Part shown: piece by piece, positions 1,181 through 58,833 of the stretch
Layout: every line of letters begins with the position of its first letter
Numbering within the stretch: the stretch's first letter is position 1
Position numbers and translations under genes: made by a program
Notes under the pieces: generated by a model
Databases searched by the model: none
The model's input: only the letters and a program-made list of their open reading frames with translations
Told to the model about the DNA's origin: nothing
Origin: Allorhodopirellula solitaria
GTDB taxonomy: Bacteria > Planctomycetota > Planctomycetia > Pirellulales > Pirellulaceae
Reading direction: 5' to 3'
DNA: 64,000 bases
Assembly (NCBI RefSeq): GCF_007859855.1
Contig: NZ_SJPK01000009.1
Location: forward strand, 1 to 64,000

Positions 1181-2185
1181 TTAGGCGATCTGGGATCGTT
1201 TTGCTCGGCGGCGGTGTCGACGGTGGGCCAAGGCGGCACACAGTAGCACTCCAAATGAAGCGATGGAGGCAGGTTCCGGCGCGGCGCTGGTGGGTGGCGT
1301 CGGTGGTACCGTCGGCAGTGGTGGCAGCGCCAGATTCGGGAGGTGGATTTCTGCACTGAGGACAACGTTATTGCCAACTACCGTGCCGGTAATGTTGGAT
1401 TGAAAATCGATTGTAGCGTTTGGAGCGATCAAAGCGCCGTTCAAAGCTCCATTAACATTGACTGTTGTCGCATTTGGGAAATACCACACGATACGATCCA
1501 GAAAGCTGGCTTTGTTGAACTCGTTCATGTTGAGGTTCAGCCCGGACAGGAAATTAATACTGGTGGCATCGTCCTTGATCAGAAACAGATCTCCCGTCGG
1601 TTCCGGATCACCCACCAGGCTCGCTCCACCGTTTTTGCGGTCAAAGAAGTACGGCTGTCCCACTTGTTCCGTCAAGTCAAAAACTGCCACACCGTCCTTG
1701 CCGGGGGTAGTGATGAACTTCGCGTTGTTCATGTCCGCCAAGTCAGTTTTACTATTCGCGTTCAGAGTGTCGAAGTAGCTCGTCAAGCGATCAACCTCAG
1801 CGCGAGCATCGTCCAGGATCGCTTGCACTCCGTCCGCGTCATAAATCGTTTTTGCGTTATCAATTTTGGCCCCAGCTATCTGGGCTTCCTTGAGTTTCGC
1901 ATTCCCATTATTCACTTTGATATTGGTTTTGAGTTGCCCCCCCAGAATCAGACCGTCGTTTTCGTACGAGGCCCCCGGTGTAACGGGACCTGAGTCCACT
2001 AATTTGTCCTGCGCGAAATCCATCGTGCCCTTTACGATGTCGCCAAAGATCAAGGATCGACCGTGAACGTGACTTTTCCCGCTAACATTCCCGAAAGCGA
2101 TCAGGTTGAAATCTTTCAGCACGCCTGCGGATGCAGAGGCGGCCGACAGCAAGAGGGAACCAACGACGATCAAATGACGAATCAT
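1181..2185 (-). CDS. Choice-of-anchor A family protein with PEP-CTERM sorting signal
   Basis: 334 residues. The N-terminus MIRHLIVVGSLLLSAASASA is a clear Sec signal peptide. It is followed by the choice-of-anchor A opening (LKDFNLIAFGNVSGKSHVHG), where the family usually has an F-N-x-I/V-x-F-G/D-N/D pattern. The body is rich in Asn and beta-prone repeats and ends with NGALNGALIAPNATIDFQ, also typical. The C-terminus is a Pro-rich linker, then PEPASIASFGVLLCAALAHR with an Arg/His tail: a PEP-CTERM signal processed by an exosortase/archaeosortase. The predicted product is exported and anchored or released at the surface. No exosortase gene is in the window. It stands alone, with repeat DNA downstream. 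Confidence 0.85.
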   Translation of the reverse strand: MIRHLIVVGSLLLSAASASAGVLKDFNLIAFGNVSGKSHVHGRSLIFGDIVKGTMDFAQDKLVDSGPVTPGASYENDGLILGGQLKTNIKVNNGNAKLKEAQIAGAKIDNAKTIYDADGVQAILDDARAEVDRLTSYFDTLNANSKTDLADMNNAKFITTPGKDGVAVFDLTEQVGQPYFFDRKNGGASLVGDPEPTGDLFLIKDDATSINFLSGLNLNMNEFNKASFLDRIVWYFPNATTVNVNGALNGALIAPNATIDFQSNITGTVVGNNVVLSAEIHLPNLALPPLPTVPPTPPTSAAPEPASIASFGVLLCAALAHRRHRRRAKRSQIA

Positions 2186-7908: not shown

Positions 7909-8016
7909 GCAACACACGATGAATAAGTGTCGGTTTTAGTAGTGGACGAGGCGACGAGTCCTGCGGCTTTGGACTCGTCGCCTCGTCCACTACGACAGAA
8001 ATTGATCGTGCGTTGC
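7909..8016. repeat. MITE-like palindromic element, copy A (108 bp)
   Basis: The ends are GCAACACACGAT and ATCGTGCGTTGC, an 11/12 terminal inverted repeat, and the element is flanked by TTA at 7906-7908 and at 8017-8019. The centre is a perfect 23-bp inverted repeat (7939-7961 and 7971-7993, core GTGGACGAGGCGACGAGTCC) around a 9-nt loop, which would form a very stable hairpin. No coding function. It lies 30 bp before the NRPS start used here, and an open frame runs through it into the NRPS gene, which can mislead start calling (a GTG at 7927 is inside the element). Related copies: 20620-21013 and 58505-58833. Confidence 0.8.
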
Positions 8017-8046
8017 TTAGGCAATTGCGGACTCGTCGGCCAATCA

Positions 8047-11000
8047 ATGGGGTTGGTCGCGCTCAATCGCCTCATTTCACACAACGATTGGCTCGTGGAT
8101 CACGAAACCGGAATCGAATCGGCAACCCAATTTTCTGATATTTGGACCCCGTGCGGCTCAGCTTCCCCTGAGGTGTCGACACTCGTTCACTACTGCCGCA
8201 ATCATGCTCACGGGCGGATGGCCGCTGCGCCGGCGTTCACGCATGTTACCGGAGAGCCGGGTGAGCACGACCGGCTGAGTTTTGCCCAGCTCGATGCCCG
8301 CGCCCGCACGATTGCCGCAGAGATTCAGCGACGAGGTGGCGTTGGAAAACCCGTTCTCGTTGTGCTCGATCCGGGGGCCGACTACGCCGCTTCGCTCTTC
8401 GGATGCTTATACGCCCGGGCGATCGCGGTTCCCATCTATCCGCCGCAGATGCTGCGACTGCAGCATACTCTGCCACGACTCAAGGCGATCATTGAGAACG
8501 CCGACGCGAACATTATGCTGAGCGATCGATCCACGATCGGAGAATCGCTCAGTTCGATGTGGCGGATGCCCAGCGACGGGGCGATCGCCGTCGATGAGAT
8601 CGACTCCGCTGCTGCCGACGGTTGGGACGGTCGGCTGCCCAAGCCCCACGATATCGCCCTGCTGCAGTACACATCCGGGTCGACGGGCAACCCGCGTGGC
8701 GTGGTGCTCACACACCGGACCCTGCTCAGCAATCTGGCGGCGATTGTCGAGCATGTTCACTTCGAGGGGGCCCGCAGTGTGCAGTGGGTGCCACCTTATC
8801 ATGACATGGGTTTGATCGGAGGCATTCTGTTGCCGATCTATCGGGGAGTGGAGACTGTCATCATTTCGCCCGCTGACTTCGTTCGCAATCCGCTGCTGTG
8901 GCTGCGTTGCATCGACCATTACCGCGGTTCGAGTAACGGGGCCCCGAACTTCGGTTACGAACTCTGCGTGCGGCGGGTAGATCACGCCGATTGCGAGGGG
9001 CTCGATCTGAGCTCATGGAAGATGGCCGTGGCTGGCGCAGAGCCGGTTCGAGCCGCAACGCTGCGTCGATTTGAAGAGAAATTCGCGAGATACGGTTTTG
9101 AATCCACGGCATTCTGTCCCGCTTTCGGGATGGCCGAGACGACGGTGATGGCAACGGGATCTCGTTTGGGCGAACCCTACCGGACCTTTCATGTCGACGC
9201 CCAATCTCTCCAGCTCGGCAAGATTGAACTGGTCTCACCGGGCCCCCAATCGACGGTGTCCGAAGATGTTACCGGGACGATGAGCGACGCTGGTTCCTCG
9301 CGACGGGCGGAGTCGTCGGACGACGGTCGGTCGCGGCCGGTGCTGGAGTTAGTGAGTTCGGGGACCCCAGTCGCCGGAATGCACTACGAAATCGTTGACC
9401 CTCAAACTCATCGTGCACTACCCGATGGCGAAATCGGAGAGATCTGGGTACGCGGTGGATCGGTCGCCTCAGGCTACTGGCAGGATGACGAGGCGAGTCA
9501 ATACACGTTCCATGCCAACCTTGCCGCTGCGCCGGAGAATCCGGACGTGCGAGCCGTCGATGCAACGGCCGATTATTTGCGCACCGGCGACCTCGCTGCC
9601 CGAGTCGATGGCGAATTGATCGTTACCGGACGGCTGAAGGAACTGATCATCGTCGCGGGCCGCAATTTCTATCCGCACGACATTGAACAGATCGTGCAAT
9701 CGACCAGCGAAGCGTTCAAACCGGACACGGGAACGGCGTTGAGCGTCGATATCGGCGACAGTGAAGAGATGGTCGTCATCCAAGAGTTGTGGCGGCCCAA
9801 GAAATTCCCAGCCGATGAACTGCTGCCGGAGGTCGTTGCGGCGATTGCCGAGCAAGCTCAAGTGACACCAGCGTCGATCGTGCTCGTCCGCAGCGGGTCG
9901 TTGCCGAAAACCTCCAGCGGCAAACTGCGCCGGACCGACGCGAAGAAGCTCTTTCTCGAGGGCGAATTGGTGGAACTGGCTCGCTGGGAATCCGGAACAC
10001 TGCGGGCGACGACGACGCGGGACATCGAGCCTCCAGCCACGGCGACGGAAACTCAGATTGCGGAGATCTGGTCTCGTATCCTTGACGTCGAGGCCATCGG
10101 TCGCGGCGACGACTTTTTCCATCTCGGTGGCAGTTCACTTCTGGTCGCCAACATGCTCATCGAGGTCGGTGAGTGCTATTCGGTCGCGATTCCGATGAAA
10201 GCGCTGTTCTGCAGTCCCACGCTGGAGGGCTTCTCGGCGTTGGTGGACTCTCACAGCGCTGGGACCGCTGCTCCGCCCACGATCGCGCCGTCGGGCATCC
10301 AATGGAACGAAACAAACCCGCTTTCCTCGGCGCAGCAACGGTTTTGGCTGCTCGACCAGCTGGGACAGACCAATGCGTTCGTGCACGTACCGATCAGTAT
10401 ACAACTCGACCGTCCGCTAGCCCTGCAACAACTGCAGTCGGCGTGTGGGCGGGTGCTCGATCGCCATCCAATGCTGCGAGCTCGGTTTACACAGATTGGG
10501 GCGGACGTCACACAATCGGTCGATGAAGTGGCGGAGGTTGATATCCGAACCTTCCTCAACGATCCGTCCGACGAGAATGAGCTTTCATCAGAACGGCGAG
10601 AGTTTCTCAATGCGCCCTTCGACCTCAGCCAGCCGCCGCTGATGCGGGTGGCGGTCACGAACCAAACCGCGGGCGGCTGCCGGATTGATATCGTCCTACA
10701 TCACTTGGTATGTGATGCGAGCAGCCTGCAGATCCTGCTCGCAGATCTACAGCGCGAGTTTGCCCCCGATTCAGATCGTCGTCCGCAGCGTGATGACGAT
10801 TCCGGGTGCGACGAGGGATCGGCGGCAGCGCAGCTACGCTATGTCGACTACGCCGCGTGGGATTTCGCGCCGCAGCGGCGCGACCAGATACAGGAGCGAG
10901 TGAACTACTGGGCCGAGCGGCTAGCGGGAATGCCCGCGGACTTGAATCTGCCGCAGTGCAGCAATCGCCATCGAGATGCGGCGGTAGCACATTCGTCCGA

Positions 11001-13494
11001 TTCCGGCATACCGGCGTCGACATGCGTCAGCCCCGATCTGATGCGCCAGATCGACAACCTGGCGATCAGTCACAACCTCACCCCGTCGATGGTCTATCTG
11101 ACCGCGCTTGAATGGGTGCTAGCACGCTACGGTGCGAGCGATGATTTCGGGATCACGATTCCCACATCCTCTCGTCCAGCGTCGCAGCTTCGAGACGTCG
11201 TGGGTTGTTTCGTGAACCCCATCGTGTACCGGGCTGAAGTCGATGGTGAGCAGACCGTCGCTAGCCTGCTGTCGGAAACACGCGATGCATTGCTATCGGA
11301 TCTCGAACATGCTGATGTGCCTTTTCAAGACGTGGTCGCCGTGACCGGTGGTGCCCGAGATACCGATCGGATGCCGCTCTCACCAGTAATGTTTTTGTAT
11401 CAGCCGCCGCTGCCATCGGTCACTCGGTTCGGAGCCGCCCGCGTCACGTCCGTCCAGCCCGACTACTCGGCGGTCACGGCATATGATGTTTCATTGATCG
11501 TTCAACCAGGCGAAACAACGGAAATGACCGTCGTCCTGGGCGAACTCGTTTCACCCGACCTCGGTGATCGCATCCTCAGCTCGATGCAGACAGTGCTCCG
11601 GCAACTCGTTGCCCCCGATGTGGGCCAATCGCCGATCTCGTCATTGAGCATCCTGTCGGTCTCGGATCGAGCCAGCCTGGAATCTGCGCAGCAGGGCAAG
11701 AAGATTGAGAACCGGAGTCAAACCAGCGTGGTGGATCGGCTGCGTGAGCACGTCGAGCATCAGCCCGATGCCTTGGCCATCCGCGACGATCACACGGGAC
11801 TGACGTATCGCGAGGTCAACGAACAGAGTGATCGAATCGCGGCGGCTTTGGTCAACGAAGGCGTGCGTCCCTCACCACTCGTCGCTCTGGCGATGCCACG
11901 ACGAGCCGAAGCCATTGTCGCCATTATCGGCATCTGGAAAGCCGGTGCGGCCTACGTGCCGATTGACCTCGATCTTCCCGACGGGCGTCGTGATCAGATC
12001 CTTCGCGAATCAGGTGCGGAGATTGTCGTCGATCCAGAACGATGGGATGTTTGGACGCAGCGTTGCGATACGTCGCCTCAACCGACCTTTCTGGACGCTT
12101 CGATCAATCCAACCGATTTGGCGTACGTGATGTATACCTCGGGATCGACCGGGAAACCCAAGGGGGTTGCCGTGAGCCACAGCAACCTTGTCAATCTGTT
12201 GACATCCTTCGGTGACGAGCCCGGATTTTCGGCGAGTGATTCCATGTTCGCCGTGACGACAATGTCCTTCGACATTTCACTCCTCGAGATGTTTCTCCCG
12301 CTATGGTGTGGCGGTCATGTCTGCCTGACGGCGCACCGAATTGGTGAAGATCCAGAATCCGTGATCGCGGCAATCGAGCAGTCGCATCCCTCGGTGATTC
12401 AGTCCACACCCTCGGCATTTCGAATGCTGCTGTCGGCGAATTGGCGTCCCGCGCCCGGGACACGACTGCTCTGCGGCGGCGAGCCCATGCTCGCCGATCT
12501 GGCCCGCGATCTGTTAGCGACATCCTGTGAGTTATGGAACGTGTACGGGCCTACCGAGACGACGGTTTGGTCCACGGTCACTCGCATCGATTCGGCTGAG
12601 AAAATCAGCATCGGTCACCCGATTGCGAACACGATCTGCCGCGTCGTCGATCGTCATGGTTTGCTCGCTCCGACCGGTGTCGCGGGGGAACTGCACATCG
12701 GAGGTGCGGGGGTGGCGCAGGGTTATTGGCGTGATCCTACGCAAACCGAGGAACGTTTCTTCATCGATCAGGGCGAACGATTCTATAAAACCGGCGACCA
12801 GGTCCGCCGCACACCCAATGGTGACCTAGAGTTTCTCGCCAGGAACGATCGACAGATCAAACTGCGTGGTTTCCGCATCGAACTCGATGAAATCGAATCC
12901 ATGCTGCAGCAGTGCCGTGGCGTCGATCGCGCCGCCGTGGTACTGCGTAACGCCGACGTTCCTGGTGGCAGCCGAATGGTCGCATTTTTCAGTGGACCGG
13001 GAACGGTGGAAACTGTCCGGGCTCAACTGACTGGGATGCTGCCTGACTACATGATACCTGCAACGATCGCTTGGTTAGAAACCCTGCCACGCACTCCGGC
13101 AGGAAAAACTGATTACACGTCATTGCCGTTAGATACACCGCCGCGTGGGGAGCCAGACGATGCATCCACCCAGACGCCTTTGGAAGGTGTGCTGGCCGAG
13201 ATGTGGTGCGAAGTCCTGGGTCGCCAAAGCGTTGGGCGGCATGATCACTTTTTTGATCTTGGCGGGAACTCGTTGATGGCGGCTCAGTTGTTTGCTCGGT
13301 TGCGACAACGATTCGATGTCAACCTACCGCTGCGAGAAGTTTACTCACGACCCACGATTGCCGCATTGGCCGAAGCGATTGTCATCCATCAAGCTGAAAC
13401 CGAGGCGGACGATCTCAGCGACCTGCTCGGCCAGCTCGACACGCTTTCGGACGACGATGTCCTGCGAGCTCTCGAAGAGACCAACAAACCATGA
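8047..13494 (+). CDS. NRPS loading/elongation protein: FAAL-PCP-C-A(Gly?)-PCP
   Basis: 1815 residues from the ATG at 8047. Residues about 40-640 are a fatty acyl-AMP ligase, with LLQYTSGSTGNPRGVVLTH near 205, the FAAL signature WVPPYHDMGLIGG near 248, and KTSSGKLRR at its end. Carrier 1 has FFHLGGSSLLV near 690. A condensation domain follows, with active-site HHLVCD near 884. The adenylation domain has YTSGSTGKPKG near 1362 and YGPTETTVW near 1499. By-eye pocket residues read D-I-L-Q-L-G-V-V-W plus Lys, close to the glycine-type code (inference). Carrier 2 has FFDLGGNSLMA near 1740. The protein should activate a fatty acid and condense it with the amino acid. The stop overlaps the flavoprotein start (ATGA). 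A GTG 40 codons upstream is rejected because it lies in a repeat. Confidence 0.9.
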   Translation: MGLVALNRLISHNDWLVDHETGIESATQFSDIWTPCGSASPEVSTLVHYCRNHAHGRMAAAPAFTHVTGEPGEHDRLSFAQLDARARTIAAEIQRRGGVGKPVLVVLDPGADYAASLFGCLYARAIAVPIYPPQMLRLQHTLPRLKAIIENADANIMLSDRSTIGESLSSMWRMPSDGAIAVDEIDSAAADGWDGRLPKPHDIALLQYTSGSTGNPRGVVLTHRTLLSNLAAIVEHVHFEGARSVQWVPPYHDMGLIGGILLPIYRGVETVIISPADFVRNPLLWLRCIDHYRGSSNGAPNFGYELCVRRVDHADCEGLDLSSWKMAVAGAEPVRAATLRRFEEKFARYGFESTAFCPAFGMAETTVMATGSRLGEPYRTFHVDAQSLQLGKIELVSPGPQSTVSEDVTGTMSDAGSSRRAESSDDGRSRPVLELVSSGTPVAGMHYEIVDPQTHRALPDGEIGEIWVRGGSVASGYWQDDEASQYTFHANLAAAPENPDVRAVDATADYLRTGDLAARVDGELIVTGRLKELIIVAGRNFYPHDIEQIVQSTSEAFKPDTGTALSVDIGDSEEMVVIQELWRPKKFPADELLPEVVAAIAEQAQVTPASIVLVRSGSLPKTSSGKLRRTDAKKLFLEGELVELARWESGTLRATTTRDIEPPATATETQIAEIWSRILDVEAIGRGDDFFHLGGSSLLVANMLIEVGECYSVAIPMKALFCSPTLEGFSALVDSHSAGTAAPPTIAPSGIQWNETNPLSSAQQRFWLLDQLGQTNAFVHVPISIQLDRPLALQQLQSACGRVLDRHPMLRARFTQIGADVTQSVDEVAEVDIRTFLNDPSDENELSSERREFLNAPFDLSQPPLMRVAVTNQTAGGCRIDIVLHHLVCDASSLQILLADLQREFAPDSDRRPQRDDDSGCDEGSAAAQLRYVDYAAWDFAPQRRDQIQERVNYWAERLAGMPADLNLPQCSNRHRDAAVAHSSDSGIPASTCVSPDLMRQIDNLAISHNLTPSMVYLTALEWVLARYGASDDFGITIPTSSRPASQLRDVVGCFVNPIVYRAEVDGEQTVASLLSETRDALLSDLEHADVPFQDVVAVTGGARDTDRMPLSPVMFLYQPPLPSVTRFGAARVTSVQPDYSAVTAYDVSLIVQPGETTEMTVVLGELVSPDLGDRILSSMQTVLRQLVAPDVGQSPISSLSILSVSDRASLESAQQGKKIENRSQTSVVDRLREHVEHQPDALAIRDDHTGLTYREVNEQSDRIAAALVNEGVRPSPLVALAMPRRAEAIVAIIGIWKAGAAYVPIDLDLPDGRRDQILRESGAEIVVDPERWDVWTQRCDTSPQPTFLDASINPTDLAYVMYTSGSTGKPKGVAVSHSNLVNLLTSFGDEPGFSASDSMFAVTTMSFDISLLEMFLPLWCGGHVCLTAHRIGEDPESVIAAIEQSHPSVIQSTPSAFRMLLSANWRPAPGTRLLCGGEPMLADLARDLLATSCELWNVYGPTETTVWSTVTRIDSAEKISIGHPIANTICRVVDRHGLLAPTGVAGELHIGGAGVAQGYWRDPTQTEERFFIDQGERFYKTGDQVRRTPNGDLEFLARNDRQIKLRGFRIELDEIESMLQQCRGVDRAAVVLRNADVPGGSRMVAFFSGPGTVETVRAQLTGMLPDYMIPATIAWLETLPRTPAGKTDYTSLPLDTPPRGEPDDASTQTPLEGVLAEMWCEVLGRQSVGRHDHFFDLGGNSLMAAQLFARLRQRFDVNLPLREVYSRPTIAALAEAIVIHQAETEADDLSDLLGQLDTLSDDDVLRALEETNKP

Positions 13495-15248
13495 TTAAAA
13501 CGAGTCAAGAACGCGACATCGACTTCCTCGTCATTGGCGCCGGGCCTGCCGGTGTGCAGTTGGGATACTTCCTCAAACGGGCTGGTTACGATCATCTCAT
13601 CCTCGAGGCCAATGATCGCCCCGGCACTTTTCTCGAGAAGTACCCGAGGCACGGCAAGTTGTTGTCGATCAACAAGATCCACACCGGATACACCGATCGA
13701 GCCTCCCAGCTCCGCTACGATTGGAACTCGCTGTTATGCGACGACGATGAGATGGCGTTTACGAAATACTCCAAAGAGTATTTCCCGAGCACGGAGGATT
13801 ATGCCCGCTACACCCGCGACTTTGCGGAACGCTTTGATCTGGATATTCAGTTCAACACTCGTGTGGAGTCCGTCGAAAAAGCGATCGATGGCGAAGAGGG
13901 GCACCTTGTTCGTGATTCACATGGGACGACCTACCACGTCCGCTGCCTGATCGTCGCTGTCGGAGTTCAGAAACCCTACATCCCCGAGATTCCTGGCATC
14001 GAGCTGACCGAGAACTACATGGAGATGTCGCTCGATCCAGAGGACTACGCCGGGCAACGTGTGCTGATTCTGGGCAAGGGAAACTCTGCCTTCGAAACCG
14101 CAGACCATCTGACGGCCGCGACGCGGGTCACCCACCTGTGCAGTCCCAGTCCGATCAAGATGGCGTGGCAAACGCATTTCTTCGGTCACCTTCGCGCGGT
14201 CAACAATAGTTTTCTAGACACGTATATTCTCAAAGGACAGAACTCGGTTCTCGATGCAACGGTGGACTCCATCCAAAAGGTTGACGGTGAGTACCACGTT
14301 GAGATCACGTTTGCCCATGCAGAGGGTCAACGAGCCTTGCTGGCTTACGACCGTGTCCTGTGCTGCACGGGATTTCGTTGGGACCCCACGTTCTTCGCCG
14401 ATGACTGCCGCCCTGAGATGGGCTGCGAAGATCGCTTGCCGGCTATGACGAGCTCGTGGGAGTCGACCAATCTGCCGGGCGTGTTCTATGCCGGCACCAT
14501 CACCCAGATCCGCGATTTGAAGAAGACCATGTCGAGCGTTCTGCATGGGTTCCGTTTCAATACTGCCTCGTTATTCAACGTGATCGCTGAGCAGTTCATG
14601 GACGCACCCTGGCCCGCAGACACCTTCGCTGCCACGGCAGAGAACATTGCCGACAAGATCACTGCGCAGGTCAGTTCGGCGGCCGGATTGATGCACCAAC
14701 CTGGCTTCCTCGGCGATTGTCTCGTGGTTGATGACGAGAGCGGCCAAGCCAAGTATCACGAAAATCTGGCGGTCGACTACATCCAGGACAGCGCGTTTGC
14801 ATCGAATCCCCACTACTACATCATCACGATGGAATACGGTGAGTTCGAGGGTGACATTTTCAACAAGCAGCGTGTCCCCGATGCAGCCAAAGGGTACGAC
14901 GATGCCTACCTGCACCCTCGGATCCGCCGCATGTGCCGCGGCCGGTTGATTGCCGAACACCATATCTCCGAATCACTCGAGAATGATTGGCGCGTCGGCG
15001 AGCATCCCGGCGAACGCCCCTTGATCCGCGCGATTGATTTTATCGGTCAAGCAGACCCGACGGACTATCAACGCACGCATCGAAATCAATTGCTCTGTTT
15101 CCTCAACGCGCAGCTGGCAGTGGGATCACCCTCGCTCGCTGAGATGCCAGACGACTCTTCGTGTCCTTCGATGAGCTCCCCTTCTCCAGCGATCCCCGCA
15201 GCTACTCATTCAGCAGGAACCTCATGTCCGACATCCAGAAACGGCTAG
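13491..15248 (+). CDS. FAD-dependent oxidoreductase/monooxygenase within the NRPS operon
   Basis: 585 residues. An N-terminal Rossmann fold carries GAGPAG (residues 16-21) for FAD. A second dinucleotide site, ILGKGNSAFETADHL, lies near residue 191, and a C-T-G-F motif near 290 (CCTGFRWDPTFF) closes the fold, as in flavin monooxygenases and FOXRED2-like proteins (Pyr_redox_3). The C-terminal 190 residues are less familiar. It is translationally coupled on both sides (4-nt overlap upstream, 25-nt overlap with the next NRPS), so it very probably acts on the peptide or a precursor. Candidate reactions are N-hydroxylation, Baeyer-Villiger oxidation or alpha-oxidation; the sequence does not decide. 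The last 30 residues are Ser/Pro-rich and may be a read-on tail. Confidence 0.85.
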   Translation: MIKTSQERDIDFLVIGAGPAGVQLGYFLKRAGYDHLILEANDRPGTFLEKYPRHGKLLSINKIHTGYTDRASQLRYDWNSLLCDDDEMAFTKYSKEYFPSTEDYARYTRDFAERFDLDIQFNTRVESVEKAIDGEEGHLVRDSHGTTYHVRCLIVAVGVQKPYIPEIPGIELTENYMEMSLDPEDYAGQRVLILGKGNSAFETADHLTAATRVTHLCSPSPIKMAWQTHFFGHLRAVNNSFLDTYILKGQNSVLDATVDSIQKVDGEYHVEITFAHAEGQRALLAYDRVLCCTGFRWDPTFFADDCRPEMGCEDRLPAMTSSWESTNLPGVFYAGTITQIRDLKKTMSSVLHGFRFNTASLFNVIAEQFMDAPWPADTFAATAENIADKITAQVSSAAGLMHQPGFLGDCLVVDDESGQAKYHENLAVDYIQDSAFASNPHYYIITMEYGEFEGDIFNKQRVPDAAKGYDDAYLHPRIRRMCRGRLIAEHHISESLENDWRVGEHPGERPLIRAIDFIGQADPTDYQRTHRNQLLCFLNAQLAVGSPSLAEMPDDSSCPSMSSPSPAIPAATHSAGTSCPTSRNG

Positions 15249-18200
15249 CCTCACTCACCCCGGCGAAACGGGCGTTGCTTGAGCAGATGCTGCTGGAGCG
15301 GGCTGGGACACGAGGTTCCAAGATCATGCCGCGGCCCCGTGGTTGTGATGAACAGCTCTCCGATGCGGAACGCCGGCTGTGGTTTGTGGACCAAATTGCC
15401 AAGGACGATCCATTCTATAACATGCCTTTGGCAGCACGCTTGCGCGGTCCCCTCGACCGGGAATCGCTGCAGCATGCGGTCGATCAGTTAGTGGCCCGGC
15501 ATGAATCGCTACGTTCGACCTATCATCTCGTCGACGGAGAACCCCAGCGAACGATTCACGAGCAGATGCGTGTCGACTGCGTTTGGTATGACGTCTCGCA
15601 CGGCGAGCATGTCGAGGCGGACCTGAAACGCCGCATGCGGGTTGCCGGTCGGACGCCGTTTGATCTCGAGCACGGCCCTCTGCTACGCGTGAACGTCTAT
15701 CGCATCAGCGATGACGAACACGTCGTGCTGTTTGTCATGCACCACATCGTCTCGGACGGGTGGTCGATGATCGTGATGCTACGTGAGCTCACGCTCGTTT
15801 ACGAAGTCGCTCAAGGCGACCATGCCGCTAGCGATGAGAGCAATGCGACACTGCCACCGCTGGCGATCCAGTACGCAGACTTCGCTCGCTGGCAGCAGGA
15901 ACGAAGCTCGAGTGAGCGTATCGAAGAGCAGATGGATTATTGGCGACGCAACCTCCAGGATGCGCCTGCGGTCCTCGACCTGCCCACGGATCGACCTCGG
16001 CCGGCAGTCCAAGACTTCATCGGTGCGACGGTCGAGTTCGAGTTTTCACGGGAATTAACGACCGCCATCAATGAACTCGCGACCCGTTTGCAAACGACAC
16101 CTTTCGCGGTTCTGATGGCGGCGGAGGCCGTTCTGCTCGGGCGATACTCGCAGAGCGATGACCTCGTGCTGGGGACCGCCTCAGCCGGCCGGACGCATCC
16201 GGAGATTGAGCCCCTAATCGGATTCTTCGTCAACACGCTCGCCCTGCGCATTCGCTTGCATGATCAACCCACGTTTGCGGACCTCGTCGGGCAGGTCCAT
16301 CAGCGAACAGTCGAGGCCCACGAGCACGCCGATGTCCCTTTCGAGCGACTCGTTGAGGAACTTGCACCGTCCCGCGATCGCAGTTTCTCGCCAATCTTTC
16401 AATCGGCGTTGGTGATGCAGAATCTGCCGCGCGACATCAGTGAGAAGGGCAGGTTGGAAGTCGAACCCATGCTCGTCGATAACGGTACGGCCAAGTACGA
16501 CTTGACGTTCTTTTTGTGGGAGGAGTCCCACCGGCTGATCGGTCATGTCGAGTATCGTTCGACTCTGTTTGACCGCGAGACGATCGAGCGATTGATCGAC
16601 TCCTTTCGCACGCTACTCGAGGCAGCGACCGGCTCTCCGGAAACGCAAGTCGATCGATTGCCGATTCTTTCGAGCGACCAATACGACCAGGTAGTCCATG
16701 CATTCAATGCAACCGAAAAGGGCTATCCCGGACCGCACTTGCTGCATGAACTCGTTGCCACTCAAGCGGCAAAGTTTCCTGAGAAAACGGCTGTGGTCGA
16801 TCGATCGCAGAGCATCAGCTACGACGAATTGATGCGGCGTGTCGATTGGTTCGCCGGGCAACTACTCGAAGCGGGCGTCCAGCGTGAGTCCGCAGTCGTC
16901 ATTCGTCTGCCGCGATCGGTCGACCTAATCGCTGCGATCTTGGGTGTTTTGAAAGCGGGAGGCTCTTTCGTGCCAGTCGATCCGGGCCTGCCGTCGGCCC
17001 GAGTCGAACACATCGTCACGGATACCGCTGCGGTGGCCGTCGTGGACGAGGAGTGGATTGCGACGCGCGGCGAGCTGACTGTACCCACTCACTTTCCCGA
17101 CATCGATCCGGGCGATCGAGCCTACGTGATCTTCACTTCCGGCTCGACCGGACGCGCTAAGGGCGTGGAGATCGAACATGACGGCATCAGCAACTTTGTT
17201 CGTGCGCAGATCGACCGGATGGGGCTAACAGCGGACGATCGCTTCAGTTTCAGCTTTTCCCCATCGTTCGATGGCGCCGTTTCGGAGATCTTCTACGCAC
17301 TCGGTAGTGGCGGCACGTGCGTGGTCGTTGACCAAGAGACGTTGTTGGTCCCCGATGCATTGGCCGAACTGCTCCGCGATCAACGCGTCAGCGTAGCGAA
17401 GTTTGCACCCGCGGTACTGGCGATGCTCGATCATGAGCACCTCCCCTACCTACGGACGGTTGCGTCCGCTGGTGACAAGCTCAGTGGTGAGCTCGCCCGT
17501 CGTTGGACCGAGGGCGGCCGGCGTCTGTTCAACGGATACGGTCCGACCGAAGTCTCCGTAGGCTGCTCGATGATGCCGCTGCACCGCGAGTGGACCGGCG
17601 AGCGTCCGCCGATCGGTGGCCCGATGCATAACATGCTGATGTATGTTCTCGACGAGCATCGGCAACCGCTACCCATTGGTGCCACCGGCGAGATCTACAT
17701 CGGTGGCCGCGGAGTCGGACGCGGCTACCTGAATCAACCCGAACAAACCGCCGCCGTTTTTCTGCCCAATCCATTTCTCGGTGAGAAAACAAGGCCGCAT
17801 TCCCGTATGTACCGCACCGGCGACCTGGGACGATGGCTTCCCGGCGGTGTCGTGGAATTCGTCGGACGAGCGGACGATCAAGTCAGCTTGCGTGGATACC
17901 GGGTCGAACCGGGCGAGATCGCAGCAACTCTCGAAACACTCGGCGAAGTCCGCCAAGCGGCCGTCATCGAACGTCGTGACCGCGAGAACACACAGCTCGT
18001 CGCCTATGTCGTCCCGCAGCCCAACGCGGCGAAAGACGCCAAGGGATCCCAACTGCAAGCCGATCATGTGACGCATTGGCGAAACCTGTTTGAGCAAACC
18101 CACCGTCTCGCTCCACCCGTACTCGACAACTCGTTCAATATCACGGGATGGGTGAGCACGTATACCGGCACGCCGATCCCCAGTGACGAGATGAAGCAGT

Positions 18201-20515
18201 GGACCGATGCGACCGTGGCTCGGATCCTGGATTTGCAGCCGCGCCGTGTGCTCGAAATCGGCTGCGGAACCGGCCTGCTGCTGTTGAGGATCGCCGAACA
18301 TTGCGATCGCTACGTCGGCTCAGACTTGCTCGAGCCTTCCCTCGATAATATTCGTGCTGAACTTGGCCGACGCCCGGAATTGGATGAGACGGTCTCGCTG
18401 CACCATGCCGACGCGGATGAATTCGGCCACCTCGACGGCGAAATGTTCGACTGCATCGTGCTCAATTCGGTGGTGCAGTACTTCCCGAGCATCGATTATC
18501 TGCTGCGTGTCCTCGACGGAGCGATTGCCCATCTCGCCCCCGGTGGCAAGATCTTCTTGGGCGACCTACGCAATCTGCGGCTACAGCCCGCCATGGCCGC
18601 TGGCATCGAACTGCTGCACGCCGACGACTCACTAGCCGTCGGTGAACTGCGCCATCGGATTCATGCGCGAATGGAACATGAAGAAGAGTTGCTGCTCGAT
18701 CCGCGTCTGTTCGCCCATCGAGACGCGCTGCATCCACGAATCACCGCGGCCACGGTCCAGCTCAAAGGCGCTGCCGAAACCAATGAACTCGGCCGCTTTC
18801 GCTACGACACCGTGCTGCACGCCGATACCGAGGATGTTGTGACGGCTCGAGATTTGGTGCCATGCGATTCACAGGAAGACGTGCCCCAGCCGATTGCAGA
18901 CGCAGCCGCACCAACCCGTTTCACTGATATCGTCAATCAACGTGTGGCCCAGGATTGCCATCTCTTTGAATCGATTGCGTCACTGCCCGCATCGGCCACG
19001 GTCGCCGATCTCAAGGAGCACGTCGCGGGGTTCGCCGCGTCGAATCGCATGCACGAACCCAACACGACGTTGGCTCACTCGGCAACTGCCATCGCGACAT
19101 GGAATGATGCCAACCCCGCGGCATTTGATGTCGTGGTGGGTGGATCTTTATCGACGCAGCCCAGCGATGATCGGCCCATCGACTTCGCCGACTTCGCAAA
19201 CGATCCGACAGGTACGGAATCGTCTCGCCAGCTCACCCAGCGACTCCGCGATGAGTTGACGGCACGCTTGCCCGCCTACATGATCCCGTCCGCATTCGTG
19301 GTGCTCGACGAATTGCCACAAACGATCAACGGCAAAATCGATCGGGCCGCCCTGCCACGACCAGCTGGACGCCCGGCTTGGGCGGGGCATTTCGAAGCCC
19401 CCACTACCCCCACGCAGGAGACGCTCGTCGCCATCTGGGAAGAACTCCTCGATACCCGTCCGATCGGGATCCAGGACGACTTTTTTCAACTCGGTGGTCA
19501 CTCCATGCTCGCCGTTCGCATGACGAGTGAAGTCGAACGACTATTGGGCAAACGGCTACCGTTGGTAGCCTTGTTCCAGAACGCTACGATCGACCATCTG
19601 TCAACGATCATCGATCAAGACGAGCTGGCGACATTAGGGACGACGTTGATGCCGCTCCGCGCGAACGGGCCACCGCCACAGGAACCCGGGGATTCCCATT
19701 CGCAATCGCCGCTGTTCTGTATCCATCCCGCCGGCGGAACAGTCTTCTGTTATCTGGAAATGGCGCAGTCGCTGAGTGCGGGACGAGCCGTTTATGGGGT
19801 GCAGGCCAATGGTATCGATGGAAATCAACCGCCCCATGAGACCCTCGCTGAAATGGCGGCCCACTACGCGCGCACGATTCGGGAGATTCATCCCCAGGGG
19901 CAAGTGCATCTAGCAGGCTGGTCACTCGGCGGCAACATTGCCTTTGAAGTCGCTCGGCAACTCCACTCGCGAGGTACGCCGGTTGGTGTCGTCGCCCTGC
20001 TCGACTCGGGACTGCTGTCGCCCGAGGAGCAACTCCGCGAGGAGGATTTCCTGCCACTGCTAACGGCGTTATTCCCCGGTGCAATGAACCTCGATCTCGA
20101 AGCGATCCGGCAGCAGAGTCCTGCTGATCAATTGCAGTTCTTTGTCGATCGAGCTTCTCAGGCCGGGATCGTACCGGATGAGCTGCACGATATCGTCGCG
20201 ACCAAGGATGCTCCGGATGCGGCACATGTGTTTGGTGTTTTCCAGGCCAACGTGAAGGCGGTCCATGAGTACATCGCCGAGCCTTACGCCGGCGACGTGC
20301 ATCTGTTCCGGCCCGCCGATCAAGGGAAAACGAACCGACTCTTCGACGACCCGCTATTGGGTTGGCGAGAGGTCACCGAGCAAACCTTGGTTCGTGAAGT
20401 CCCCGGCGACCATGCTCACATGTTGCAGTCACCCGCCGCCGAGTCGATCGCCGAGCAACTCGACGAACTAATGGTGGCGAGCGAACTCTCACCGGCCGCC
20501 GCCAGTACCCTCTGA
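15224..20515 (+). CDS. NRPS termination protein: C-A-nMT-PCP-TE
   Basis: 1763 residues from the ATG at 15224, preceded by AGCAGGAACCTC; an earlier in-frame start at 15161 lies deep in the previous gene. A condensation domain has HHIVSDG near 172. The adenylation domain has FTSGSTGRAKG near 636 and GYGPTEVSVG near 770. Between its A8 and A10 motifs sits an N-methyltransferase (VLEIGCGTGLLLLRIA near 1008). The A10 motif TINGKIDRAALP is near 1366. The carrier has FFQLGGHSMLAV near 1425. The type I thioesterase has GWSLGG near 1565, Asp in LLDSG near 1592 and His in PGDHAHML near 1728. It adds one N-methylated residue and releases the product. The pocket reads roughly D-G-S-K-A-A-G-V-G, which I cannot assign. 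Confidence 0.92.
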   Translation: MSDIQKRLASLTPAKRALLEQMLLERAGTRGSKIMPRPRGCDEQLSDAERRLWFVDQIAKDDPFYNMPLAARLRGPLDRESLQHAVDQLVARHESLRSTYHLVDGEPQRTIHEQMRVDCVWYDVSHGEHVEADLKRRMRVAGRTPFDLEHGPLLRVNVYRISDDEHVVLFVMHHIVSDGWSMIVMLRELTLVYEVAQGDHAASDESNATLPPLAIQYADFARWQQERSSSERIEEQMDYWRRNLQDAPAVLDLPTDRPRPAVQDFIGATVEFEFSRELTTAINELATRLQTTPFAVLMAAEAVLLGRYSQSDDLVLGTASAGRTHPEIEPLIGFFVNTLALRIRLHDQPTFADLVGQVHQRTVEAHEHADVPFERLVEELAPSRDRSFSPIFQSALVMQNLPRDISEKGRLEVEPMLVDNGTAKYDLTFFLWEESHRLIGHVEYRSTLFDRETIERLIDSFRTLLEAATGSPETQVDRLPILSSDQYDQVVHAFNATEKGYPGPHLLHELVATQAAKFPEKTAVVDRSQSISYDELMRRVDWFAGQLLEAGVQRESAVVIRLPRSVDLIAAILGVLKAGGSFVPVDPGLPSARVEHIVTDTAAVAVVDEEWIATRGELTVPTHFPDIDPGDRAYVIFTSGSTGRAKGVEIEHDGISNFVRAQIDRMGLTADDRFSFSFSPSFDGAVSEIFYALGSGGTCVVVDQETLLVPDALAELLRDQRVSVAKFAPAVLAMLDHEHLPYLRTVASAGDKLSGELARRWTEGGRRLFNGYGPTEVSVGCSMMPLHREWTGERPPIGGPMHNMLMYVLDEHRQPLPIGATGEIYIGGRGVGRGYLNQPEQTAAVFLPNPFLGEKTRPHSRMYRTGDLGRWLPGGVVEFVGRADDQVSLRGYRVEPGEIAATLETLGEVRQAAVIERRDRENTQLVAYVVPQPNAAKDAKGSQLQADHVTHWRNLFEQTHRLAPPVLDNSFNITGWVSTYTGTPIPSDEMKQWTDATVARILDLQPRRVLEIGCGTGLLLLRIAEHCDRYVGSDLLEPSLDNIRAELGRRPELDETVSLHHADADEFGHLDGEMFDCIVLNSVVQYFPSIDYLLRVLDGAIAHLAPGGKIFLGDLRNLRLQPAMAAGIELLHADDSLAVGELRHRIHARMEHEEELLLDPRLFAHRDALHPRITAATVQLKGAAETNELGRFRYDTVLHADTEDVVTARDLVPCDSQEDVPQPIADAAAPTRFTDIVNQRVAQDCHLFESIASLPASATVADLKEHVAGFAASNRMHEPNTTLAHSATAIATWNDANPAAFDVVVGGSLSTQPSDDRPIDFADFANDPTGTESSRQLTQRLRDELTARLPAYMIPSAFVVLDELPQTINGKIDRAALPRPAGRPAWAGHFEAPTTPTQETLVAIWEELLDTRPIGIQDDFFQLGGHSMLAVRMTSEVERLLGKRLPLVALFQNATIDHLSTIIDQDELATLGTTLMPLRANGPPPQEPGDSHSQSPLFCIHPAGGTVFCYLEMAQSLSAGRAVYGVQANGIDGNQPPHETLAEMAAHYARTIREIHPQGQVHLAGWSLGGNIAFEVARQLHSRGTPVGVVALLDSGLLSPEEQLREEDFLPLLTALFPGAMNLDLEAIRQQSPADQLQFFVDRASQAGIVPDELHDIVATKDAPDAAHVFGVFQANVKAVHEYIAEPYAGDVHLFRPADQGKTNRLFDDPLLGWREVTEQTLVREVPGDHAHMLQSPAAESIAEQLDELMVASELSPAAASTL

Positions 20516-20619: not shown

Positions 20620-21013
20620 TTAGCAACACACGATGATAAGTGTCGGTTTTAGTAGTGGACGAGGCGACGAGCTGTTGGTTACCCACAAGTGCAGCATTCT
20701 ATCGATTGCTGAAGATAGCTCATGACAACGCCCCAACGGGGCAGTTCTATGAAAGCCCCAGGCAACGCCTGGGGTTTCAGACGCCACCACCTCGCGTTAG
20801 CCCCAACGGGGCGGCTCTATTTGCACATGCCATCCGAACCGCAGGATTGCGGCGAACATGAGGGCCGCCCCGTTGGGGCTAACGAAACATTTCGCTATCC
20901 GATTATCCGACCCCAGGGCGATGCCCTGGGCTTTCATACAGCCGCCCCGTTGGGGCTCAAGAACGCTTCCGTCGGATGAACCGGAATCAACAGCTCGTTG
21001 CCTCGTCATAGAC
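20620..21013. repeat. MITE-like palindromic repeat block, copy B
   Basis: The left end TTAGCAACACACGATGATAA plus GTGTCGGTTTTAGTAGTGG matches copy A with one deletion and the same orientation. About 200 bp (20620-20825) are nearly identical to the complement of 58640-58836. The interior holds GCCCCAACGGGGC palindromes three times, flanking CCCAGGC...GCCTGGG hairpins. The right side ends with a degraded AACAGCTCGTTGCCTCGTC near 20990-21010, the inverted counterpart of the left motif. Frames through it (for example 20722-20979) are repeat-encoded and not believable proteins. The whole 20516-21021 gap is explained by this block. Confidence 0.7.
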
Positions 21014-58504: not shown

Positions 58505-58833
58505 GCAACGCACGATCAATTTCTGTCGTAGTGGACTCGTCGCCTCCTGTCAGTTACCCACAAAAACGGATCCCCTGTCAGCTTGTCTGACAGGAATCCC
58601 GGTTTTGTGATTACCCGCATGTATCCCGAAGCAAATAGAGCCGCCCCGTTGGGGCTAACGCGAGGTGGTGGCGTCTGAAACCCCAGGCGTTGCCAGGGGC
58701 TTTCATAGAACTGCCCCGTTGGGGCGTTGTCATGAGCTATCTTCAGCAATCGATAGAATGCTGCACTTGTGGGTAACCAACAGCTCGTCGCCTCGTCCAC
58801 TACGAAAACCGACACCTATTCATCGTGTGTTGC
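58505..58833. repeat. MITE-like palindromic element, copy C (329 bp, inverted)
   Basis: The ends are GCAACGCACGATCAATTTCT at the left and, inverted, GCAACACACGATGAATAGGT at the right, flanked by TAA at 58502-58504 and 58834-58836. The right 190 bp are nearly identical to the complement of copy B (20620-20825), and the left end matches the right end of copy A. Inside are GCCCCGTTGGGGC palindromes around AACCCCAGGCGTTGCCAGGG, and CCTGTCAGCTTGTCTGACAGG. Minus-strand frames through it (for example 58516-58815) are repeat-encoded. It explains most of the 58505-58938 gap. Confidence 0.8.

Follow-up and report, generated by a model that had tools for sequence, protein, structure and literature searches.

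A compact planctomycete operon predicted to make an N-acyl-glycyl-N-methyl lipodipeptide encodes a conserved flavoprotein

What does a peptide synthetase operon of only three genes make, and what does the flavoprotein encoded in its middle contribute? The question is raised by positions 8,047 to 20,515 of a 64,000-nucleotide stretch from the planctomycete Allorhodopirellula solitaria (contig NZ_SJPK01000009.1), the whole of which we call the window. A nonribosomal peptide synthetase (NRPS1) beginning with a fatty acyl-AMP ligase (FAAL) is followed here by a flavoprotein, P0002, and a second synthetase (NRPS2). We consider it likely that the operon forms a complete two-module line, predicted to yield N-acyl-Gly-N-methyl-Xaa, and that the flavoprotein is its dedicated tailoring enzyme. 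This view is based on what was read directly: the order of the genes and of their domains, the intact motifs, the conservation of the set and the co-occurrence of its members.

Layout of the operon

The open reading frames (ORFs) as called, 7927-13494, 13491-15248 and 15161-20515, overlap on the plus strand. Genes 1 and 2 meet in a 4-base ATGA overlap, and the candidate start of gene 3, ATG 15224, falls within gene 2. For gene 1, we prefer the in-frame ATG at 8047, because the frame extended to GTG 7927 passes through a dispersed repeat (7939-7993). Pfam returned two AMP-binding, two PP-binding and one Condensation domain in gene 1, Pyr_redox_3 in gene 2, and Condensation, AMP-binding, methyltransferase, PP-binding and Thioesterase domains in gene 3. 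The resulting features are these, abbreviated below as C (condensation), A (adenylation), PCP (peptidyl carrier protein), MT (methyltransferase) and TE (thioesterase):

8047..13494, plus strand: gene 1 (NRPS1), FAAL-PCP-C-A-PCP synthetase; frame open from GTG 7927
8230..9972, plus strand: fatty acyl-AMP ligase domain (Pfam, NCBIfam, PDB matches)
10042..10230, plus strand: first carrier domain, approximate limits, LGGSSL (Pfam and motif)
10312..11670, plus strand: condensation domain 1, HHLVCDA (Pfam and motif)
11743..13107, plus strand: adenylation domain 1 (A1), code DILQLGVVWK, predicted glycine (Pfam and code extraction)
13192..13380, plus strand: second carrier domain, LGGNSL (Pfam and motif)
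13491..15248, plus strand: gene 2, flavoprotein P0002 (Pfam, fold and profile matches)
about 15224..20515, plus strand: gene 3 (NRPS2), C-A-(N-MT)-PCP-TE synthetase; frame open from GTG 15161
15356..16690, plus strand: condensation domain 2, HHIVSDG (Pfam and motif)
16757..18040, plus strand: adenylation domain 2 (A2), main part, code DGSKAAGVGK (Pfam and code extraction)
18143..19336, plus strand: methyltransferase insert and end of A2 (Pfam; alignment with 5wmm)
19418..19606, plus strand: third carrier domain, LGGHSM (Pfam and motif)
19709..20464, plus strand: type I thioesterase, GWSLGG, LLDSG, PGDHAH (Pfam and motifs)

The ORF overlaps and Pfam agree with an earlier note, made from the sequence alone, which had described three coupled genes of just this composition, with two modules after a FAAL start. 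The starter domain matches NCBIfam fatty-acid-AMP-ligase models far under their cut-offs. Among its 18 distinct PDB matches at E ≤ 1e-20, seven are named FadD23/FadD28/FadD32 or fatty-acyl-adenylate-ligase and four 'acyl-CoA synthase', the best being 7r7g, 'Polyketide synthase' (E 1.1e-116). A FAAL-type domain followed by a carrier and then a condensation domain is the arrangement of a FAAL-initiated NRPS lipopeptide line.

Both condensation domains keep HHxxxD, and the carrier serines, the A3 and A5 motifs, the TE serine and histidine and the S-adenosylmethionine (SAM) motif are intact in the window and kept in relatives. Serine and histidine are conserved in all 13 NRPS2 proteins compared and the TE aspartate is seen in the ten NRPS2 proteins aligned; position and conservation suggest that the three are the catalytic residues. 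The SAM motif, EIGCGTG in 12 of the 13 and EVGCGTG in one (L035), belongs to a methyltransferase that interrupts A2 close to the domain's C-terminus. This insert and the A2 end align over 396 query residues (2-397) with PDB chain 5wmm (E 8.2e-52; title 'NRPS'), which we take to be TioS, an interrupted A domain of another synthetase. The earlier note's statements on HHxxxD and on a full thioesterase triad thus hold, and its impression of a functional line fits both the intact motifs and the low ratios of nonsynonymous to synonymous substitution (dN/dS) given below. Across the genome (6.8 Mb, 62 contigs), the operon's two Condensation domains are the only PF00668 matches; PF01648 returned two phosphopantetheinyl-transferase matches.

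A REP-like palindromic repeat lies both within the GTG-extended 5' part of gene 1 and directly 3' of gene 3. It occurs in the window at 7939-7958 (plus), 7974-7993 (minus), 20652-20671 (plus) and 58784-58803 (minus), with near matches at 666 and 33184. Its 20-base arm has 166 exact copies in the genome (85 plus, 81 minus; reversed control, 0), several pairs among the places listed being spaced 35 or 312 bases apart.

Predicted substrates and product

Ten code positions per A domain were mapped by a script from landmark residues. The A2 code is DGSKAAGVGK in 11 of 13 loci, DGSKSGGVGK in L035 and DGSKLAGVGK in L037. Five of the ten window positions are identical to the tyrosine code DASTVAAVCK. 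Equally, five match the Asp/Asn code DLTKVGHVGK (PMC12283262), and because of this tie we write the second residue as Xaa; a bulky side chain ending in a polar or acidic group may fit the lysine at the fourth position and the small residues. A1 follows DILQ[LFV]GV[VI]WK in 13 of 13 loci, the window's version differing at two positions from a published glycine code, DILQLGMIWK (PMC12283262). All 13 A1 domains are thus predicted to select glycine, which the earlier note had thought probable as the first residue, and the SAM-motif-bearing insert argues, as that note did, for an N-methylated second residue.

In the order of steps that we infer, the FAAL would adenylate a fatty acid and load it onto PCP1, and C1 would couple the acyl chain to glycine held by PCP2. 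C2 would then couple acyl-Gly to Xaa, N-methylated by the methyltransferase within A2, and the TE would hydrolytically release what is most likely the product, N-acyl-Gly-N-methyl-Xaa, the free acid being its simplest form. The flavoprotein would act on this peptide as a tailoring enzyme using flavin adenine dinucleotide (FAD) and NADPH, through a flavin oxygen adduct; side-chain hydroxylation or bromination, or oxidation of a backbone carbon, are candidate reactions.

Small N-methyl lipodipeptide lines are already known, which weakens the earlier note's point that so small a line is unusual: the bimodular corallorazine (crz) line likewise joins a fatty acyl chain to two residues, with a type I N-methyltransferase within the second A domain (PMC11342130). 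The operon differs from crz, in which serine/dehydroalanine is followed by N-methyl-Gly, the acyl-CoA ligase and the carrier protein are free-standing, and release is reductive, by a TD (PMC11342130), whereas the operon has a fused FAAL, predicted glycine first, a different N-methyl residue, a TE and the internal flavoprotein gene. Neither serine followed by N-methyl-Gly nor a TD release was found in it. Stieleriacines, from Stieleria, are also N-acylated amino acids of planctomycetes, with a proposed pathway of NasY, a nitroreductase and a ThiF-like enzyme (PMC12479983), none of which Pfam detects in the three operon genes. Among open-access papers, no title or abstract opening pointed to a FAAL-initiated line in planctomycetes.

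Conservation of the gene set

Flavoproteins with an identity of 54% or more to that of the window were found in 13 genomes (G000, G001, G003, G007, G008, G010, G012, G018, G020, G537, G579, G580, G059), all of which carry orthologs of both synthetases. The set spans two families of the order, G059 being the genome from the other family; same-genus relatives include Rhodopirellula rubra, Rhodopirellula sallentina, Neorhodopirellula pilleata and Aporhodopirellula aestuarii. In ten genomes the genes are adjacent on one strand (with a gap of ~1.3 kb before the flavoprotein in G020). In the other three (G018, G579 and G580, genus g7), NRPS1 and the flavoprotein are neighbours, while the NRPS2 ortholog, 53% identical over ~1725 residues, lies elsewhere, at a distance of ~300 to 600 kb on the assumption of circular chromosomes.

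The pairwise distances of the three proteins correlate (r 0.93, 0.99 and 0.95; 12 of the 13 loci), R. sallentina (L025) having been excluded from this test and from the flavoprotein alignment. In strain SM41 of that species, the flavoprotein gene (L025 9800-11553) is split over two frames, either broken or a draft error. Between G018 and G579, dN/dS was 0.055 for NRPS1, 0.067 for the flavoprotein and 0.103 for NRPS2; against G007 the values, rough because synonymous sites are near saturation, were 0.111, 0.018 and 0.053. The flavoprotein is the most conserved of the three. In the flanks examined, genes are common to close species only, bar one of ~300 residues, without a Pfam match, which adjoins NRPS1 in two genera.

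A flavoprotein profile (E ≤ 1e-60) was positive in 19 of 241 genomes of the family, shorter paralogs included, and in 7 of 13 of the genus; in an even draw across the phylum, the single positive among 392 was the window genome itself. Six profile-positive genomes (G455, G458, G461, G464, G465, G500) fall outside the 13, while G503, present as a 3.2 kb contig only, was left unclassified. Of these six, the flavoproteins compared directly (L067, L068, L069 and L071) are 42-46% identical to the window's.

The flavoprotein and its relatives

P0002 consists of a flavin monooxygenase (FMO)-type core (residues 7-370) and a C-terminal domain (370-550) for which a PDB fold search returned no match. Its GAGPAG and GKGNSA motifs, Pyr_redox_3 and the fold mark an FAD/NAD-binding core of a kind common to many flavoproteins. 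We propose that it represents a separate family next to the FMO/ArsO-type monooxygenases; the open-access literature searched held no characterised bacterial member.

Relatives keep varied company. In four Streptomyces loci (L028-L031) and one Nonomuraea record, the relative stands beside an acyl-CoA-ligase-like enzyme (5/5), in stretches that also hold a P450 (4/5), a Lyase_aromatic-family enzyme (4/5) and a flavin mononucleotide (FMN) dehydrogenase (3/5); no carrier motif was found in them. Three of the four Streptomyces loci also carry a P450, an FMN dehydrogenase and a second flavoprotein. In another planctomycete, at L069 5894-14369, a shorter paralog has as neighbours a class IV aminotransferase and an NRPS that the contig end truncates (domains PCP, C, A, PCP, TE), and at L067 7811-11151 a paralog and a gene of 596 residues that Pfam does not match share a few bases. 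This variety suggests that the family serves several pathways. Elsewhere in the window, 1184-2185 (minus strand) encodes a predicted ice-binding-like adhesive domain protein (PF20597).

Several points weigh against our account of the line and its flavoprotein. The fingerprint of class B FMOs and Baeyer-Villiger monooxygenases, FxGxxxH(xxxW), occurs in 0 of 18 aligned rows despite close fold and profile, so that the fold alone carries the case for oxygen chemistry, and the fold of YpdA-type reductases is almost as similar. No NRPS genes accompany the relatives in the stretches examined of L036, L065, L067 and the four Streptomyces loci; the family hence need not act on carrier-bound peptides. 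Much of the distance correlation could be expected from vertical descent alone, and the A2 code is tied between two kinds of substrate.

Alternative explanations

The boldest testable guess, a special case of the tailoring role, is that P0002 is a bacterial ERFAD/FOXRED2-family halogenase and the product a brominated N-acyl-Gly-N-methyl-aryl lipodipeptide. We regard this as unlikely, if worth pursuing. P0002 is only putatively ERFAD/FOXRED2-like, FOXRED2 being the earlier note's label, and its kinship to animal ERFAD is presumed. OroF of sponge oroidin biosynthesis, ERFAD-like in its authors' words, uses FAD, NADPH and KBr to brominate pyrrole carboxamides and is described as lacking known halide-binding motifs; the same authors state that no enzymatic reaction has been characterised for human ERFAD (PMC12833800). 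Of the classical flavin-dependent halogenase motifs, WxWxI and Fx.Px.Sx.G (PMC12871659), P0002 likewise has neither, the former being absent from all 18 rows and the latter present in one (L031). Its core joined to an unmatched C-terminal domain, the Lyase_aromatic-family enzyme near all four Streptomyces relatives and an A2 code rich in small residues also favour bromination. OroF differs in being an animal protein with an endoplasmic reticulum signal peptide and in acting on pyrrole amides. Against bromination, no halide site can be named in P0002. If A2 takes the equally near Asp/Asn, no aromatic ring is left; and the Streptomyces lyase scores highest, under cut-offs, with histidine ammonia-lyase models, followed by tyrosine and phenylalanine enzymes, so that phenols are not necessarily indicated. 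Open-access searches found no paper joining FOXRED2 to 'biosynthetic gene cluster', no reaction of animal ERFAD proteins beyond OroF's and, among the matches listed for ERFAD with halogenase, FMO-like or brominase terms, ERFAD only in PMC12833800.

Quite unlikely, in our estimate, is a product that stays in the membrane as a structural aminolipid instead of being a secreted metabolite. Glycine-serine dipeptido-lipids of Bacteroidota are described (PMC12479983), the acyl-Gly-Xaa layout is linear, and the flanks examined show no conserved exporter or resistance gene, the one gene shared across genera being that of ~300 residues. Yet the patchy spread of the flavoprotein within genus and family, even with paralogs counted, is unlike that of an essential lipid.

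We see only a slim chance that the flavoprotein acts on acyl-Gly as a hydroxylase of the glycine alpha carbon, in the manner of myxothiazol-type MOx domains, yielding a fatty amide by cutting or passing on a modified glycine. The glycine module lies directly upstream of the flavoprotein gene, which in genus g7 stays beside the glycine synthetase with NRPS2 elsewhere, and MOx action on glycine has been described (PMC11342130). Cutting, however, would waste an NRPS2 that is kept in 13 of 13 genomes. MOx domains, moreover, sit embedded in an A domain and belong to another flavin family. A reductase or YpdA-like redox helper that leaves the peptide untouched is improbable despite the similar fold, since CxxC is absent from all 18 rows (a motif that YpdA itself is not known to carry) and the flavoprotein closely co-occurs with the NRPS pair.

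Significance

A complete two-module line with a tailoring flavoprotein remains our preferred account. The pathway is orphan and conserved, its product should be short and is nearly predictable, and few natural products are known from its phylum. Its flavoprotein, conserved and tied to the line, is the part most worth study: its reaction would bear on sponge OroF and, if the kinship is true, on human ERFAD, and should it prove a halogenase, the older chemistry of animal ERFAD proteins would be visible in its bacterial family.
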